Below, one piece after another: positions 856 to 20,371 of a DNA stretch of 64,000 nucleotides. This DNA is from Nonomuraea montanisoli. Lineage in GTDB: Bacteria > Actinomycetota > Actinomycetes > Streptosporangiales > Streptosporangiaceae. The notes beneath the pieces were generated by a model. That model saw nothing but the letters and a program-made list of their open reading frames with translations. It was not told the DNA's origin and made no database searches. The position numbers were made by a program, and so were the translations under genes. The stretch spans positions 51,636-115,635 of the forward strand of contig NZ_JABWGN010000013.1 of NCBI RefSeq assembly GCF_013363975.1. The letters are read 5' to 3'. Each line of letters opens with the position of its first letter. The stretch's first letter is position 1.

Positions 856-2910
856 ATGACGCGAGAGCCGTATCCCACCGCGCGCCGTGCGGACACCGTC
901 GACGTCCTGCACGAGACGCCCGTCCCCGACCCCTACCGGTGGCTGGAGGATCCCGACAGTCCCGAGACGCAGGGGTGGCTGCTGGCTCAGGCCGACCTGT
1001 TCAAGCGGGAGAGCGGGCCGCAGCGCTTCCGGGAGCGCATCGGCGAGCTGCTCAGGTCGGGCTCGGTGGGCACTCCCGCCTGGCGCGGCGGGCGCGCGTT
1101 CTTCAGCCGCCGCACGCCCGACCAGGAGCACGCGGTCTACTACGTCGCCGAGCCCGACGGCACCGAGCGGGCGCTGATCGACCCCATGGAGCTCGACCCG
1201 TCCGGGCTGACCACGCTCGACGCCGTCCAGCCCGACAAGGAGGGGCGTCTCCTCGCGTACCAGATCTCGGTGGGCGGCACCGAGGAGTCGGTCCTGTACG
1301 TCATCGACGTCGCGACCGGCTCCCGCGTCGAGGGCCCGATCGACCGCTGCCGCTACTCCCCCGTGGCCTGGCTCCCGGGCGGCGAGGCGTTCTACTACGT
1401 GCGCCGCCTGCCGAGCACCGAAGTGCCGGAGAACGAGTCGCAGTTCCACCGCCGCGTCTACCTGCACCGGGTCGGCACGTCCACCGAGGACGACGTCATG
1501 ATCTTCGGCCAGGGCCTGAAGATGACCAACTACTACGGCGTCTCGGTCTCGCGCGACGGCCGGTGGCTCCAGGTCTCCGCGCACGAGGGCACGGCCCCGC
1601 GCAACGACCTGTGGGTGGCCGACCTGACCGCCTCGCCGCCGGAGCGGCCCGAGCTCGTGGTCGTCCAGGAGGGCGTGGACGCGCAGACCGGGCTGACGTT
1701 CGGCCGCGACGGGCGGCTGTACGTCCACACCGACCGTGACGCGTCCCGGGGCCGCGTCTGCGTGACCGACCCGGCGACGCCCGGGGCCGAGGGATGGCGC
1801 GACCTCATTCCCGAGGACCCCGAGGCGGTGCTGTCCGACTACGCCGTCCTCGACGACCTGGAACGCCCGATCATGCTGGTGGGCTGGACGCGCCACGCCA
1901 TCAGCGAGATCTCGGTGCACGACCTGGCCACGGGCGAGCGCCTCGGCGAGGTGCCCACGCCGGGCCTCGGCTCGATCGGCGGCCTGTCGGAGCGGCCCGA
2001 GGGCGGGTTCGAGGCGTGGTTCGGCTACACCGACAACACCACGCCGCCGACCATCCAGCGCTACGACGCCCGCACGGGCGAGACCACGCTGTGGGCGGCC
2101 TCACCGGGCGCGGTCGAGGTGCCGGCGGTGCGCACCTCCCAGGAGGTCTACCGGTCCAAGGACGGCACCGAGGTGCGGATGCTCGTCATCTCCCCGGTCG
2201 ACGCCGAGGGGCCGCGCCCCACCATCCTGTACGGCTACGGCGGCTTCGGCCTGTCGATGACGCCCGGCTACTCCGCCTCCATCCTGGCCTGGGTCGAGGC
2301 GGGCGGCGTGTACGCCATCGCCAACCTGCGCGGCGGCGGCGAGGAGGGCGAGGACTGGCACCGCGCCGGCATGCTCGGCCACAAGCAGAACGTCTTCGAC
2401 GACTTCCACGCGGCGGCCGAGCACCTCGTCGCCACCGGCGTCACGACGCCCGAGCAGCTCGCCATCTCCGGCGGCTCCAACGGCGGCCTGCTCGTCGGCG
2501 CCGCCCTGACGCAGCGGCCCGACCTGTACGCGGCCGTGGCCTGCTCGGCGCCGCTGCTCGACATGGTGCGCTACGAGCTGTTCGGGCTGGGGGCGACCTG
2601 GAACGTCGAGTACGGCTCGGCCGAGGATCCCGAGCAGTTCGGGTGGCTGCGGTCGTACTCGCCGTACCACCAGGTGCGCGAGGGCGTGGAGTACCCGGCG
2701 GTGCTGTTCACGGTGTTCCAGTCGGACACGCGGGTGCATCCGCTGCACGCGTGGAAGATGTGCGCGGCGCTGCAGCACGCCTCCGCGTCGGACCGGCCGG
2801 TGCTGCTGCGCAACGAGGCCGAGGTGGGACACGGGGCCCGCTCGATCAGCCGCACGGTGGACCTGTCGGCCGACACCCTCACCTTCCTGGCCCACCACAC
2901 CGGGCTGTAA
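856..2910 (+). CDS. Prolyl oligopeptidase family (S9A) serine peptidase
   Basis: A 684-residue cytoplasmic serine peptidase that cleaves after proline in short peptides. The first ~420 residues form the beta-propeller; the N-terminal signature [11 protein letters not shown] is typical of the family. The alpha/beta-hydrolase domain carries the nucleophile Ser541 in GGSNGG, Asp624 in QSDTRVHP and His659 in VGHGAR, so the triad is complete. Length is normal for S9A (about 690-710). The open frame extends upstream to 544, but that stretch looks like low-quality translation of intergenic DNA; ATG 856 begins the conserved part and has a leaderless promoter just before it. No signal peptide is present. 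A hairpin at 2921-2954 ends the transcript. Confidence 0.92.
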
Positions 2911-10635: not shown

Positions 10636-10659
10636 GCCGTCATGCTGCCAGCCCCGCGG

Positions 10660-10739
10660 CCTGCCCGCCCCACAGTCTGGCCGCCCCGCAGCCTGCCCGC
10701 CCCGCAGCCTGCCCGCCCCGTAGCCTGGCCGCCCCGCAG
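10660..10739. repeat. Five 16-bp tandem repeats
   Basis: Five near-identical units of CCTGCCCGCCCCGCAG (variants with one or two changes) lie in the gap between the TPR gene and the small membrane protein gene. A 16-bp unit would destroy any reading frame, so the array is non-coding. Confidence 0.9.
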
Positions 10740-10741
10740 AG

Positions 10742-12448
10742 TCACCCGCCCGCCGCGCGTTCCTCGTCCGCCTCCGCCTCCGCCGTACGGCCGAGCGAGC
10801 GCAGCGCCACCGCCCGGTTGGCGTACAGGTCGGGATGCGGGTCGAGGCCGATCGCCTGCGCGAGGTCGTCCACGGCCCCCTCGGCGTCGCCCTCCGCGAA
10901 CCGCAGCACCCCGCGGTTGCCCCACGCCGCGGCCAGCCACGGCGCCCGCGCGATGACGGCGTCCAGCGTCGCGCGCGCCTCCTCCAGCCTGCCCGCGGCC
11001 GTCTCCAGTTGCCCGCGGACCACGAGCAGGTGCGGGTCGCCGGGGGCCAGCGCGAGCCCGGCCCGCACGTCGGCCCAGGCGTCCTCGTCGCGTTCGAGGG
11101 CGGCCAGCAGCCCGGCCCGGTTGATGTACGCGTCCACGTAGCCGGGGTCGAGCTCCAGCACGCGCCCCAGGTCGGCCAGCGCGCCCTCCGTGTCGTCGCG
11201 GGCGATCCGCAGCTCGGCGCGGTTGTAGTACGCCTCGGGCATCGGCGGGCCGGCCCGGATGGCGCTCTCGTAGTCGGCCAGCGCCTCGTCCGGCAGGCCG
11301 AGCCGGGCCAGCAGGTTGCCCCGGTCCAGGTAGTGGTCGGGGAAGCCGGGGTCGAGGGCGATGGCCGCGGCGTACTCGGCGAGCGCCTCCTTCGTTCGGC
11401 CGAGCGCGGCCAGCAGCCGCCCGCGGTTGGCGTGCAGCACCAGGCGGTGCAGCGGATGCCGCTCCCCCAGCTCGCCGGCCAGCTCCAGGGCCGACTCCAC
11501 CAGGGCGAGCGCCGCCTCCGCCCGTCCCTCGCGCAGCTCCACGAGCGCCAGGCCGTTGCGGTCGAAGCCCAGCTTGAACGCCCGCTCGAACGGGTCGGGC
11601 AGCAGCGTCGAGATGGCGATGGCCTCGTTGACCCATTCCCGCGCCCGGCCGAGGTCGCGCCGCGCCGGGTCGGGGTGCCGGGCGTCGAGCATCGCCAGGC
11701 CGTACGCGGCGGCGGCGTGGACCGCCGGGTCCTGGCTGCACCTGCGGGCCCGCGCCCACACCTCGCGCGCCTCCTCGGTACGGCCGAGGCCGCCGAGCGC
11801 CGTAGCGGTGCGCTGCGCGAAGCGCCACCACAGCTCGCCTCCCGGCTCGGCCGCCTCCAGCCCGCGCGTGCCGAGCTCGGTCACGGCGTGCAGGAACCCC
11901 TCGTGGACGCACCGGTCCACCACCTGCCACAGCTCTGCGGGGCCGCGGGTGTCCGGTGCCGGCTCGGGGCCGCCCTCGTACACGACGACGGTGAGCACGC
12001 CGGGCGGGACGCGCCGGGTCAAGACGTCGAGCAGCTCGGCGTCCGTCGGGTCGGTCTCGGCGCCGTTGCACACGACCAGGGTGTGTCCCGGCGGCACGGC
12101 CTCGCGGACGAACTCGGCGAGCCCGTTGGCCAGCCGCAGCGTGCGGCGGGGCGCGGGCACGAGGATGCGCTCGTCCTCGGGCAGGGCCGCCTCGACGCTC
12201 ACGCGCCGGGCGGGGACCAGGTCGCGCAGCCCGGGGGCCGCCGCCCGGATCTCGATGTCGTGGGCGGCGACCAGGTCCGGGGAACGTTCCAGGACAGCCG
12301 GCACGAGGTGGTGCAGCAGTGCGGAGGCGACGGTGTAGGGGCCATGGGGCCGGCGGTGTCCGTCGATCATCGGCATCAGCAGCCGCACGGCCCCCGTTTC
12401 TTCTGGCGGATCGCTCTGCACCCGATGATGCGAACCGCTCCCGGTCAC
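10742..12448 (-). CDS. TPR protein coupled to a 24-residue peptide gene
   Basis: A 568-residue protein. Residues ~20-190 form a non-TPR domain (PYTVASALLHHLVPAVLER, HDIEIRAAAPGLRDLVP) with no Walker motif that I can see. From ~residue 195 to the end run about ten tetratricopeptide-like repeats, recognisable by repeats such as HANRGRLLAALGRTKEAL, DRGNLLARLGLPDEALADYE and NRAELRIARDDTEGAL. TPR domains bind peptides or proteins. The GTG start overlaps the TGA of the upstream 24-codon gene (GTGA), so translation is coupled and the TPR protein probably acts with that peptide. No catalytic domain is evident. Downstream lie the 16-bp repeats. Confidence 0.8.
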   Translation of the reverse strand: MTGSGSHHRVQSDPPEETGAVRLLMPMIDGHRRPHGPYTVASALLHHLVPAVLERSPDLVAAHDIEIRAAAPGLRDLVPARRVSVEAALPEDERILVPAPRRTLRLANGLAEFVREAVPPGHTLVVCNGAETDPTDAELLDVLTRRVPPGVLTVVVYEGGPEPAPDTRGPAELWQVVDRCVHEGFLHAVTELGTRGLEAAEPGGELWWRFAQRTATALGGLGRTEEAREVWARARRCSQDPAVHAAAAYGLAMLDARHPDPARRDLGRAREWVNEAIAISTLLPDPFERAFKLGFDRNGLALVELREGRAEAALALVESALELAGELGERHPLHRLVLHANRGRLLAALGRTKEALAEYAAAIALDPGFPDHYLDRGNLLARLGLPDEALADYESAIRAGPPMPEAYYNRAELRIARDDTEGALADLGRVLELDPGYVDAYINRAGLLAALERDEDAWADVRAGLALAPGDPHLLVVRGQLETAAGRLEEARATLDAVIARAPWLAAAWGNRGVLRFAEGDAEGAVDDLAQAIGLDPHPDLYANRAVALRSLGRTAEAEADEERAAGG

Positions 12449-12519
12449 CCCTTGTGGATGACGCTCGCAGTCCCCGTGAGCTTCGCTGAGCCCGGCTTGT
12501 GCACGACGATGCGCTTCAT
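12445..12519 (-). CDS. 24-residue basic peptide gene, coupled to TPR gene
   Basis: ATG 12519 is preceded by a strong GGAGGGG ribosome site (12531-12537 on the plus strand) and opens a 24-codon frame. The product begins MKRIVVHKPGSAKLTG and ends ASVIHKG: five Lys, one Arg, two His, no acidic residue and no Cys. The TGA overlaps the GTG start of the TPR gene (12445-12448), the classic arrangement for coupled translation. It is too short for ordinary gene finders. Possible roles are a signalling or RiPP-type precursor peptide recognised by the TPR protein, or a leader that only sets TPR expression. I see no RiPP maturase in the window. Confidence 0.7.
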   Translation of the reverse strand: MKRIVVHKPGSAKLTGTASVIHKG

Positions 12520-12535
12520 GGTGTCCTACCCCTCC

Positions 12536-12645
12536 GTTGGGACTAATCCACCATTATTCGGCCACTTCAGCGATTATCAAGGTTTAGGACATATAAGTAA
12601 GTGGGTAATAGCTAAGGCGCTGTTTATTCAGCGATTTCCAGCCGT
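12536..12645 (-). promoter_or_regulatory. AT-rich promoter region of peptide-TPR operon
   Basis: This stretch is far richer in A+T than its surroundings (for example GACATATAAGTAAG and ACCATTATTCGG on the plus strand). It also holds a 5-bp hairpin CGCTG-TTTATT-CAGCG (12617-12632) just past the EamA stop. It is the likely promoter of the peptide gene; I cannot fix the hexamers. Confidence 0.45.
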
Positions 12646-13989
12646 TCAGCCGGGCCGAAACCAGCACGGCTTCGCCGCCTCCCCGTTCTTCTCGGCCTCT
12701 TCGATCAGCGAGCACAGACAGCGACCGGTCAGCGTGACCGACTGGCAGCAACCGGGGCCGGGCAGGTTCCTCGCCCGGACGATGATCGTCGCCCGCTGGA
12801 TCAGCCGGTCCAGGCTGGGCTGGCCGCTGCCCTTGATCTGGTGCGTCTGCAGCCGGCACGCCTGGGTGTCGAGGCACACCTGAGCGGCGCCCGGCGACGC
12901 GGGCGGCGCCGGCTGCTCCTCGACCCCGACGGAATCCTCGACGGACTCCTCCGCCTGGTCGCGGACGTCCCGTTTGACCTTGAGGTCGGCCAGCCGCCTG
13001 GACGCCTGGCGTGACACGGCGAGCAGGTGGTTGCGGCGCGACGCCTCCTCCCCCACGGGCCGCGACGGTTCGACCCGCTGGACGGACACCGGGGACGGCG
13101 ACTCGGCGATGCGCGAGGGCACGGCCAGCAGCATCGCCGCCCCCATGAGCCCGCCGCCGAGGGCCATGCTCCAGTCCGCCGGCTCGTGGAACCAGATCAC
13201 CGCGATCCCCGCCACCCACAGCGGCTGCGACGACATGAGCACCGCGCTGGGCACGGCGGCCACGTGCGTCTGGCCGTACGAGCGGGCCAGGAAGCCCAGC
13301 GCGCACGAGACCACCGACAGGTGGCCCAGCGCGATCCAGTCCGAGGGACCGGCCGGGAGGCTCAGCCCGTCGCGGACCGCGTAGCCGCCCGTCATGAGGC
13401 CGATGGTGGCGAGCTGGATGACGGTCAGGGCGTAGGCGTTGAAGCCCTCGCGGGTGCGGGTGAGCCGGGCCAGGAGCAGCGTGTGCCCCGCGTACAGGGC
13501 CGCGGCGGTGAGCGTGACGCCGAGCGCCAGCAGCGAGATCGGGCCCTCCTCGACGCCGCGCAGGAGCGTGAACACCGTCATGCCGGCCACCGCCAGCGCG
13601 ACGCCCACCCACACCCGGACGGGCATGTGCGTCCTGAACAGCAGGAGCGCCAGGATCGGCGTGAAGATCACGCTGCACCCGACCGCGAAGCCCGACACGG
13701 CCGAGGGCAGGCTGTGCAGCGCGACGGCCTGCCCGAGCTGGCCGACGCCGAACATGACCCCCAGGACGACCCCGTGCCCCCACGTGCGCCACGCAAGCCC
13801 CCGCAGCGTGCCGGGACGCAGGAGAAGGAGCGTCAGCGCCGCGAGGGCGTAACGCTCGGCCAGCAGATCCTCCACCGGTAACCGGACGATGAGATCCTTC
13901 ATCAGCGGGAACGCCGACCCCCATGCGGCGCTGACGAACAACAGAAGCACGGCTCCCAGGAGGGGTCGGGGAGCGGCCACGACTGCCAT
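12646..13989 (-). CDS. EamA/DMT-family transporter with cysteine-rich tail
   Basis: A 447-residue protein. Residues ~1-295 make ten membrane helices of two EamA repeats (AWGSAFPLMKDLIVRLP at the start, MSSQPLWVAGIAVIWFHEP near the end), typical of drug/metabolite exporters. Unusually, ~150 hydrophilic residues follow. This tail has a basic, coiled part (SRRNHLLAVSRQASRRLADL), an acidic linker, then a segment with seven cysteines arranged CLDTQAC, GCC, GRCLC and PCW. That could bind a metal such as zinc or form disulfides. No stop or frameshift separates the parts. It precedes the peptide/TPR genes on the same strand, so export of a related product is possible but unproven. Confidence 0.78.
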   Translation of the reverse strand: MAVVAAPRPLLGAVLLLFVSAAWGSAFPLMKDLIVRLPVEDLLAERYALAALTLLLLRPGTLRGLAWRTWGHGVVLGVMFGVGQLGQAVALHSLPSAVSGFAVGCSVIFTPILALLLFRTHMPVRVWVGVALAVAGMTVFTLLRGVEEGPISLLALGVTLTAAALYAGHTLLLARLTRTREGFNAYALTVIQLATIGLMTGGYAVRDGLSLPAGPSDWIALGHLSVVSCALGFLARSYGQTHVAAVPSAVLMSSQPLWVAGIAVIWFHEPADWSMALGGGLMGAAMLLAVPSRIAESPSPVSVQRVEPSRPVGEEASRRNHLLAVSRQASRRLADLKVKRDVRDQAEESVEDSVGVEEQPAPPASPGAAQVCLDTQACRLQTHQIKGSGQPSLDRLIQRATIIVRARNLPGPGCCQSVTLTGRCLCSLIEEAEKNGEAAKPCWFRPG

Positions 13990-18676: not shown

Positions 18677-20371
18677 ATGACTATCCCCTGGTGGCGTGAT
18701 GCGGTCGTTTACGAAATCTATGTACGCAGTTTCGCCGACGCCTCGGGTGACGGCGTCGGCGACCTCGCCGGCATCCGGCGGCGCCTGCCGTACCTCCGCG
18801 ACCTGGGCGTCGACGCCGTCTGGCTGACGCCCTTCTACCCCTCCCCCATGGCCGACGGCGGCTACGACGTGGCCGACTACCGCGGCGTGGATCCCCTGTT
18901 CGGGTCGCTGGCCGACTTCGAGGCGCTGGTGGCCGACGCGCACGAGCTGGGGCTGCGGGTGCTCGTCGACATCGTGCCCAACCACAGCTCCGCCCAGCAC
19001 CCGTGGTTCCAGGCGGCGCTGCGCGGGGAACGGCGCGAGCGCTACCTCTTCCGCGACCGGACGAACAACTGGCAGTCCACCTTCGGCGGGCCCGCCTGGA
19101 CGCAGGTGGCCGACGGGCAGTGGTACCTCCACCTGTTCGCGCCGGAGCAGCCCGACTTCAACTGGCGGGAGCCGGAGGTCCACGAGGAGTTCCTGGACGT
19201 CCTGCGCTTCTGGCTGGACCGGGGCGTCGACGGGTTCCGCATCGACGTGGCGATGGGCCTGTACAAGGCGGAGGACCTGCCGGACCTGCCCGCGGTGGAC
19301 GACCAGGCGTTCGGGGCGCGCTCGCCGGTGTGGGGACAGCCCGAGGTGCACGAGGTCTACCGGTCGTGGCGCAAGCTGCTCGACGGCTACCCGGGCGAGC
19401 GCATGGCGGTGGGCGAGGTGTGGACCGACGACCCGGAGGACCTGGCCCGCTACGTCCGGCCGGACGAGCTGCACCAGAGCTTCAACTTCGCCTGGCTCCA
19501 GGCGCCCTGGTCGGCGACGGCGTTCCGCAAGGTGATCGACGACACGCTGACGACCGTGCCGTTCGCCACGTGGGTGCTGTCCAACCACGATGTCGTACGG
19601 CACCGCACCCGCTACGAGACGGCCGACCCGGGAACCGGGCTCGCCCGGGCAAAAGCGGCACTTCTTGCCATGTTGGCGCTTCCCGGGTCTGCATACCTCT
19701 ACCAGGGGGAGGAACTAGGTCTCCCCGAGGTGAAGAATCTTCCCCCGGAGGCGCGGCAGGACCCGGTCTTCTTCCAGTCGGAGGGCAAGCTGCCGGGCCG
19801 CGACGGCTGCCGGGTGCCGCTGCCGTGGGAGACGTCGGGGCCGTCGCACGGGTTCTCGCCGGGCGACGCGCGGCCGTGGCTGCCGCAGCCCGAGGAGTTC
19901 GGCGCGCTGAGCGTCGCGGCCCAGACGGGCGACCCGGCCTCGACGCTGGAGTTCTACCGGGCGGCGCTGGCCTGCCGGCGGGAGGTGGTGGAGGACGTCC
20001 CGCACGCGATCGAGTGGCTGGACTCGCACGAGGACGCGCTGGTCTTCCGGCGCGGATCGCTGGTGTGCGCGCTCAACTGCGGCACCGACGCCGTACGACT
20101 GCCGCCGCACGAACGCGTCCTGCTGGCGAGCGGCCCCCTGGCGGACGGAGCGGTGGCAGGCGGACCCGCGGCGGGCGGGCCTGCGGCGAGCGGGCCTACG
20201 GTGGGCGGGCCTACGGTGGGCGGGCCTACGGTGGGCGGGCCTACGGTGGGCGGGCCTACGGTGGGCGGGCCTACGGTGGGCGGGCCTACGGTGGGCGGGC
20301 CGCTGACCGGCGGCGTCCTGCCTCCGGACACGGCCGTCTGGCTTCAGGTCGCGCCCGGCCCCGTCAGGTGA
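18677..20371 (+). CDS. GH13 alpha-glucosidase with GGPTV repeat near C terminus
   Basis: A 564-residue cytoplasmic glycoside hydrolase, family 13 (oligo-1,6-glucosidase/alpha-glucosidase group). The (beta/alpha)8 barrel begins WWRDAVVYEIYVRSFAD; conserved regions are DIVPNHSS, the nucleophile Asp in DGFRIDVAMG, the acid/base Glu in AVGEVWTDD and the stabiliser Asp in LSNHDVV. It should release glucose from maltose-type or isomaltose-type sugars. The C-terminal beta domain is interrupted near residues ~500-545 by a GGPTV pentapeptide repeat encoded by a 15-bp tandem array; the frame resumes with LPPDTAVWLQVAPG, so the domain closes normally. It overlaps the convergent MFS gene by 8 bp. Confidence 0.92.
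   Translation: MTIPWWRDAVVYEIYVRSFADASGDGVGDLAGIRRRLPYLRDLGVDAVWLTPFYPSPMADGGYDVADYRGVDPLFGSLADFEALVADAHELGLRVLVDIVPNHSSAQHPWFQAALRGERRERYLFRDRTNNWQSTFGGPAWTQVADGQWYLHLFAPEQPDFNWREPEVHEEFLDVLRFWLDRGVDGFRIDVAMGLYKAEDLPDLPAVDDQAFGARSPVWGQPEVHEVYRSWRKLLDGYPGERMAVGEVWTDDPEDLARYVRPDELHQSFNFAWLQAPWSATAFRKVIDDTLTTVPFATWVLSNHDVVRHRTRYETADPGTGLARAKAALLAMLALPGSAYLYQGEELGLPEVKNLPPEARQDPVFFQSEGKLPGRDGCRVPLPWETSGPSHGFSPGDARPWLPQPEEFGALSVAAQTGDPASTLEFYRAALACRREVVEDVPHAIEWLDSHEDALVFRRGSLVCALNCGTDAVRLPPHERVLLASGPLADGAVAGGPAAGGPAASGPTVGGPTVGGPTVGGPTVGGPTVGGPTVGGPTVGGPLTGGVLPPDTAVWLQVAPGPVR
20191..20295. repeat. Seven 15-bp tandem repeats in GH13 gene
   Basis: Seven perfect copies of CGGGCCTACGGTGGG, preceded by degenerate copies from ~20160. 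They encode repeated GGPTV within the last beta domain of the glucosidase. The unit is a multiple of three, so copy number can vary without frameshift. Confidence 0.95.

Follow-up and report, generated by a model that had tools for sequence, protein, structure and literature searches.

A conserved 24-codon gene overlapping a TPR-protein gene in Nonomuraea: a candidate relative of RiPP-like operons

Results

The peptide gene and its TPR neighbour

The window, i.e., the whole stretch of 64,000 nucleotides analysed here, holds on its minus strand a 24-codon gene for the peptide MKRIVVHKPGSAKLTGTASVIHKG and, overlapping the stop of the latter as GTGA, a gene for a TPR protein of 568 residues (12448..10742). 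The plus-strand reading of the stretch occupied by the peptide gene contains an in-frame stop. The earlier note had described the small ORF, the GGAGGGG site and the stop/start overlap with the TPR gene without naming a strand; all of these are real and belong to the minus strand (Table 1). A promoter-like element further upstream recurs as CTTGATAtTCG...AATAAT in most of the 37 aligned orthologue regions, being missing in two of them (L061, L062) and deprived of its first half in another (L012), and it could act as the promoter of the peptide gene. At the Shine-Dalgarno place, the aligned orthologues carry a purine-rich GGAG/GAGG/GGAAG-like site. Neither Pfam nor NCBIfam yielded a match to the peptide at E 0.1 or better, and no signal sequence or other export signal is apparent within its 24 residues. 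A GC-rich tandem repeat with a 16-base unit and 5.9 copies (window 10645-10751) lies around the point where the TPR gene ends and in the interval preceding the gene of a small membrane protein.

Table 1. Coordinates of the peptide gene, its start region and the parts of the TPR gene within the window.
Feature	Position	Strand	Basis
24-codon peptide gene, MKRIVVHKPGSAKLTGTASVIHKG	12445..12519	minus	ATG, 23 codons and TGA
Shine-Dalgarno-like GGAGGGG	12529..12535	minus	ATG 9 bases on; seen in the sequence
GTGA, overlap of peptide stop and TPR start	12445..12448	minus	NTGA in 37/37 orthologue loci
Candidate promoter-like element, TTGATA (12580..12575), 16 bases, AATAAT (12558..12553)	12553..12580	minus	Alignment of orthologues
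N-terminal domain, residues about 27-165, STAND/LuxR-type NTPase relic without P-loop	11954..12370	minus	hhalign
TPR superhelix, residues 166-568, and stop codon	10742..11953	minus	Pfam TPR models, AlphaFold2, PDB matches

The N-terminal domain of the TPR protein aligned in hhalign with P-loop-bearing ATPases (probability 96, E 4.3e-9), which places it among homologues of STAND NTPases, while the Walker A P-loop of these enzymes is found neither in the window protein nor in any of 80 relatives. No Pfam DNA-binding domain was detected in the protein. Its AlphaFold2 model (pLDDT 96.1, pTM 0.92) resembles, in a fold search of the PDB, peptide-bound TPR proteins such as LGN, PlcR-PapR and Rap, the last from phage and with its peptide. 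The alignments mostly span TPR residues 157-568 and hardly cover residues 1-156, so the kinship of the N-terminal domain rests on sequence profiles, and, since TPR folds resemble one another, the PDB matches show no function. Groove-facing TPR positions were more conserved than outward helix-B positions (0.94 vs 1.49 bits, permutation p 0.0015), given the TPR position numbers assumed here and bearing in mind that helix-A positions may be conserved for packing. The conserved groove and the resemblance of the model to peptide-binding TPR proteins are the two features that speak for the TPR protein as a peptide receptor or chaperone, which it may be.

Conservation within the genus

The first search, over 98 genomes, gave a TPR orthologue with at least 68% identity over its main piece for 53 of the 54 genus genomes, the window's own among them; the sole exception was G009. 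The orthologue is in two pieces in three genomes (G026, G015, G019) and has one internal stop in two others (G006, G031). The best match to residues 1-180 in the public set, a protein named from N. roseoviolacea, is 92% identical over 95% of them. Frame changes near residue 160 were located at 5954-5977 of L060 (G026) and 6049-6058 of L063 (G015); they fall in the segment that links the dead NTPase to the TPR part, and sequencing error, decay or a gene split would all fit.

The peptide ORF was present in all 30 same-genus orthologue loci fetched first, and in all 37 of the enlarged set, which derives from 37 genomes and comprises 34 distinct DNA sequences and 22 distinct peptides. Over these 37 loci, the peptide gene showed a pooled pN/pS of 0.20 with a pS of 0.33, and, judged by these sequence ratios, the peptide is under purifying selection. 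A chance ORF is thus ruled out by conservation and pN/pS together. The peptide stop overlaps the TPR start throughout, as GTGA in 36 loci and as ATGA in one (L005), and the TPR reading frame is open from the overlapping start in all loci except L007, where it is broken. The earlier note had staked its idea on a conserved peptide ORF with a GTGA/ATGA overlap upstream of TPR homologues; the finding of such an ORF in 37/37 same-genus loci means that the idea withstood its genomic test. The window's own genome holds two copies matching a peptide-only profile, each just upstream of a TPR gene of the same family.

The peptide family beyond the genus

Related peptides are encoded upstream of TPR relatives with 36-57% identity. 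Type I, to which the window peptide belongs, reads MKxIxVRKPGxxxLxGxSSVIHKG, type II reads MKxVxVHKPGTVxLxGAASPKHxx, and the more distant type III reads MKKMTIRRKSxxRLxSGARRLWIEWCW. A profile built from 12 type I and II peptides only (A4), used in six-frame genome searches, matched 93 of 200 genomes of the window's family and 29 of its 68 genera. In this and the other profile searches (A3, A5, A8) a limited number of candidates was scored per genome and long tables were used from the top; the counts are tallies or refer to fetched loci. The A3 tally of 123/200 family genomes includes weak matches of about E 1e-4 that resemble P-loop ATPases, and is not taken as a count of the family. None of seven peptide relatives (five from three-gene operons described below, one of type III, one beside a second TPR family) had an NCBIfam match up to E 10.

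Among 30 loci fetched from the best peptide-only matches, the TPR gene was adjacent in 27 and left no trace in three, while type III peptides had it beside them in 11/11 loci. In all ten larger peptide loci, picked because no TPR match was listed near the peptide and including the aforementioned three, no relative of the TPR gene was found within 15 kb. In five loci in which no TPR relative was found (L184-L188), the peptide is kept at a syntenic place beside an NsdA-like gene, accompanied by a GNAT-like gene in four, and in other genera the same place is occupied by the peptide together with the TPR gene. The peptide pN/pS was 0.32 over five TPR-less loci vs 0.24 over ten other-genus loci with the TPR gene. 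Some decay is possible in TPR-less loci, as suggested by a run-on C-terminus in L185 and loss of the Pro in L193. Peptide relatives devoid of a TPR relative could accordingly have another role or partner, or be decaying there.

Type II-like peptides were also seen to adjoin a second kind of TPR protein (cluster c46, TPR_12) in L192 (6494-7555), L200 and L201, which means that pairing of the peptide may extend to several TPR families. A different arrangement was observed on the minus strand of L056 (G044), upstream of 3768, where a secreted-looking Ala/Thr/Ser-rich ORF ending in VACIVAS is followed by a TPR protein with 29% identity.

With regard to the neighbouring genes, families of the EamA transporter, the small membrane protein and the serine hydrolase were each found in 12/12 same-genus loci (the window and L060-L070), two of the three lying on the other strand in L069, vs 0/11 type I loci of other genera. 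The latter loci have an NsdA-like regulator and a GNAT-like gene (GNAT assigned by inspection) beside the peptide/TPR pair. These three genes, which the earlier note had suggested as possible parts of the system, were therefore rejected as partners and are genus-specific neighbours of the pair. The EamA transporter (window 12646-13989, minus strand) is extended at its C-terminus by about 150 residues, several of which are Cys. A prolyl-oligopeptidase-like gene (c14, by inspection; window 856-2910, plus strand) belongs to a region conserved around the pair in several genera. Elsewhere in the window, a 15-base tandem repeat in 8.9 copies (20169-20301) codes for a PTVGG repeat near the C-terminus of a glycosidase-like protein.

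A three-gene operon with an RRE-S2P protease

Weak matches of the peptide-only profile were located 1.5-1.8 kb upstream of other TPR relatives. The order at such loci is the peptide (MKKIKIRKAGPVRLTAAACSIYKNVS in L059), a HExxH protein rich in hydrophobic stretches, and the TPR protein. Seven HExxH proteins were aligned and used to scan genomes, resulting in 119 relatives of this protein, here called RRE-S2P, the best 80 of which were kept. A homologue of the TPR protein's N-terminal domain lies directly downstream in all of these best 80 of 119 loci, and an upstream peptide is present in 79, 77 of them recognized by automatic score and two (L244, L261) by eye; L281 alone has none. Hosts include Streptosporangium, Lentzea, Streptomyces, Kitasatospora, Amycolatopsis, Micromonospora and Nocardia, and the operon is patchy, with a protease relative in four of 296 genomes drawn from the phylum, one of them marginal. 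Frequent, although not constant, neighbours of the 80 loci are flavin-reductase-like proteins (34/80), SARP-like regulators (28/80) and old-yellow-enzyme-like proteins (7/80), all named by inspection, and an AfsR-like family with BTAD and NB-ARC domains (14/80).

Peptides of the three-gene operons have the form MKKIxVRKxGxVRLTxxAxxxY followed by a variable tail. Comparison of the 62 distinct ones from the 80 loci revealed invariant positions 7, 10 and 15, a Cys after position 15 in every peptide, Tyr at position 22 in 54, and entropies of 3.0-3.7 bits at positions 23-28. These relatives thus combine a conserved leader with a variable core, and the variability of their Cys- and Tyr-bearing tails is likewise known from RiPP precursors in general.

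The AlphaFold2 model of the protease (pLDDT 88.6) shows an N-terminal beta3-alpha3 domain and then long helices with the HExxH motif. The best domain-sized Foldseek matches of the N-terminal domain are RREs in complex with leader peptides, i.e., TbiB1 (probability 0.93-0.99 and target-normalized TM 0.62-0.68) and TfuB1 (0.97 and 0.70), followed at lower ranks by TigE, SkfB and McbBCD. None of these matches has an E-value below 0.46, and the list is mixed with unrelated membrane proteins of probability 0.2 or less, so the RRE assignment rests on the predicted fold. Sequence comparisons gave weak signals: TfuB1 was the sole match in a PDB sequence profile search (E 0.2); among four proteases in Pfam, one matched RsmI_C (E 0.031), another Peptidase_M50 (E 0.066), and two had no match; and one of three proteases in NCBIfam matched the lasso PqqD model (E 0.067) beside other weak matches. 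On the strength of the model, a leader-binding (RRE) domain is predicted to be encoded beside the three-gene precursors.

No RRE-S2P relative was found in the window's genome (G000, 0 matches), be it at the locus or elsewhere, or in its close kin G048 and G026; the pair is thus retained in genomes in which this leader peptidase was not found. Relatives of the protease, mostly distant (e.g., L286-L289), occur in 42 of the 54 genus genomes.

Kinship of the two forms

The leader of the 62 distinct three-gene precursors aligns free of gaps, K-K-I-x-V/I-R-K-x-G-x-V-R-L-T-x-x-A being common and low in entropy. Positions 1-15 of MKRIVVHKPGSAKLTGTASVIHKG align to the leader MKKIxVRKxGxVRLT likewise without gaps, and its position 18 is the shared A, while position 22 holds H where the peptides of the RRE-S2P operons mostly have Y. 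The 20 two-gene peptides compared have K2, P9 and G10 in common, L14 in 18 of them, A or S at position 18, H22 in 20/20, and no Cys in any; two further peptides of the 12-peptide profile depart at position 9 or 10. As a control, 388 genomes of the class were searched with a profile restricted to two-gene peptides, and matches outside the window's family occurred in four of them. Three of these genomes (G071, G336, G474) are the same three that have strong outside-family matches to the TPR protein's N-terminal domain, so a model made from two-gene peptides alone recovered three-gene precursors; the fourth match (G064) is weak and has an internal stop.

Hairpins placed after precursor genes are a usual way of yielding more peptide than enzyme. 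A strong hairpin follows the peptide gene in all 24 three-gene loci chosen from the 80 (-29 to -44 kcal/mol, z -1.9 to -6.9), whereas the window form has coupling instead. Type II peptide genes are followed by a hairpin with z below -2.5 in four of six loci. Ten type I loci of other genera comprised six without a gap before the called TPR start, one with a strong hairpin (L176) and three without, and the hairpins of two type III loci are stable yet not stronger than in shuffled sequence.

In an unrooted 64-row tree of TPR proteins, types I and II together with two related rows form one group (100/100 support), to the exclusion of the RRE-S2P rows and of type III, which has a long branch. In the genomes covered here, types I and II of the two-gene form come from the window's family only, while the three-gene form comes from eight families according to the names on the tree. 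This wider taxonomic spread makes loss of the protease the simpler reading of the unrooted tree, and we infer this direction of reduction from the spread only.

Discussion

The explanation that we favour, giving it about even chances, is that the analysed pair consists of a RiPP-type precursor and a TPR protein that handles it, and that this peptide-binding and probably intracellular pair is what remains of an actinobacterial RiPP-like operon after reduction to two genes. The suggestion of a RiPP-like system, made in the earlier note, finds support in the homology of the window peptide with the precursor-like peptides of RRE-S2P-TPR operons. The full form comprises a precursor with the basic leader MKKIxVRKxGxVRLT and a variable Cys/Tyr-bearing tail, a membrane protein in which a predicted RRE domain is fused to a site-2-type (HExxH) protease, and a TPR protein with a dead STAND NTPase as its N-terminal part. 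In the window's lineage, the protease gene would have become absent and the peptide tail fixed, devoid of Cys and with His for Tyr at position 22. The peptide would be expressed from its own promoter and the TPR protein co-translated by means of the shared GTGA. Conserved Asn and acidic residues line the TPR groove, where the peptide might then be captured by its basic leader, and alternation of the TPR protein between bound and free states might constitute a regulatory or handling switch inside the cell.

Alternatively, the peptide could be an exported signal or a RiPP that is processed by general proteases and transporters, with the TPR protein sensing its mature C-terminal piece inside the cell in the manner of Rap or PlcR. 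The homology with precursor-like peptides is consistent with such an origin too, as are the presence of PlcR-PapR and Rap among the structural matches, the C-terminal SVIHKG fixed in orthologues, and the prolyl-oligopeptidase-like c14 gene, located a few genes away on the other strand in 11 of 41 clustered loci and in the window. However, the 24 residues contain no apparent signal sequence, no transporter or peptidase shares the operon across genera (an MFS-like gene, c25, is present in 5/41 loci), and no Pfam DNA-binding domain was found in the TPR protein, and we regard this alternative as rather unlikely, even if it is the foremost among the rivals of the intracellular reading. It could also be supposed that the TPR protein is a chaperone or adaptor that hands the peptide over to a membrane protease or an exporter whose gene lies elsewhere in the genome, because the TPR gene travels with a membrane protease in all of the best 80 of 119 three-gene loci. 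The pair is nevertheless kept in the window's genome, G048 and G026, where no relative of this protease was found, and delivery of this kind appears improbable.

An equally slight chance is left for the ORF being a translational leader that controls or couples translation of the TPR gene, with a peptide sequence that matters to the ribosome only. Such a role would agree with the four-base overlap in 37/37 same-genus loci, the length of only 24 codons and the last codons being the least variable in DNA. On the other hand, a gap of 44-411 bases lies between the peptide gene and the gene that follows in all 24 three-gene and all six type II loci sampled, and these gaps hold a hairpin stronger than shuffled sequence (z -1.9 or lower) in 24/24 and 4/6 cases, respectively. 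Moreover, the last two residues vary in type II, and the peptide relative persists at its syntenic place even without the TPR gene, with the pN/pS of 0.32 over five loci given above.

The two-gene and three-gene forms share features with several known systems. The passages of PMC10036551 that deal with daptides present the leader peptidase MpaP as an RRE fused N-terminally to a site-2 protease, a leader motif ELExMEAP with a C-terminal Thr, and a pathway having MpaB, C, D and M. The same fusion of RRE and site-2 protease characterizes, by predicted fold, our three-gene relatives. In contrast to daptides, MKKIxVRKxGxVRLT serves as the leader here, a TPR protein is the constant partner, and a protease is missing from the window pair; ELExMEAP occurs in 0/62 of the relatives' peptides and is absent from the window peptide, and a C-terminal Thr is found in one of the 62 (L244). 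Similarity to RRNPP systems (Rap-Phr, PlcR-PapR) consists of the short peptide gene adjoining that of a TPR protein and of the superhelix fold, but the window pair is actinobacterial, its peptide has no apparent secretion signal, and its TPR protein possesses a dead NTPase domain instead of a Pfam DNA-binding domain. LuxR-type STAND regulators have a P-loop NTPase domain to which the N-terminal domain of the TPR protein is homologous; the window protein, however, lacks the P-loop, and no DNA-binding domain was found in it. The likeness to the lasso peptide RRE proteins TbiB1 and TfuB1 is confined to the predicted N-terminal fold of the protease in the three-gene relatives, no such gene having been found in the window's genome.

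No description of an operon of peptide, RRE-S2P and TPR genes was found in the open-licence PMC literature; the TPR mention in the relevant passage of PMC8068269 concerns a regulator with a BTAD domain, which is another system. Within what was searched there, the leader motif appears to be new, as do the partnership with a TPR protein and the reduction to two genes, while RRE-S2P fusions are already known from daptides. The pair is a candidate relative of RiPP systems.

In regard to its significance, the pair provides a small gene that is conserved and whose partner is defined, and the leader motif together with the gene order (peptide, RRE-S2P, TPR) can be mined across actinobacterial families. 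Comparison of the three-gene and two-gene forms could reveal how a RiPP-type precursor loses its processing machinery yet stays under selection with only a TPR protein beside it. Binding of the leader by the TPR protein, if it takes place, would mean that the RRE is joined by a novel type of leader-binding protein. It is also possible, although we consider it a speculative and on balance doubtful proposal, that the precursor, the RRE-site-2 protease and the STAND-derived pseudo-NTPase TPR protein define an unnamed class whose Streptosporangiaceae member has been domesticated: the protease lost, the core frozen, and the remainder now a vertically inherited intracellular peptide-receptor switch, with the TPR orthologue in 53/54 genus genomes. 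If this were true, a natural-product precursor would have turned into a core regulatory peptide.
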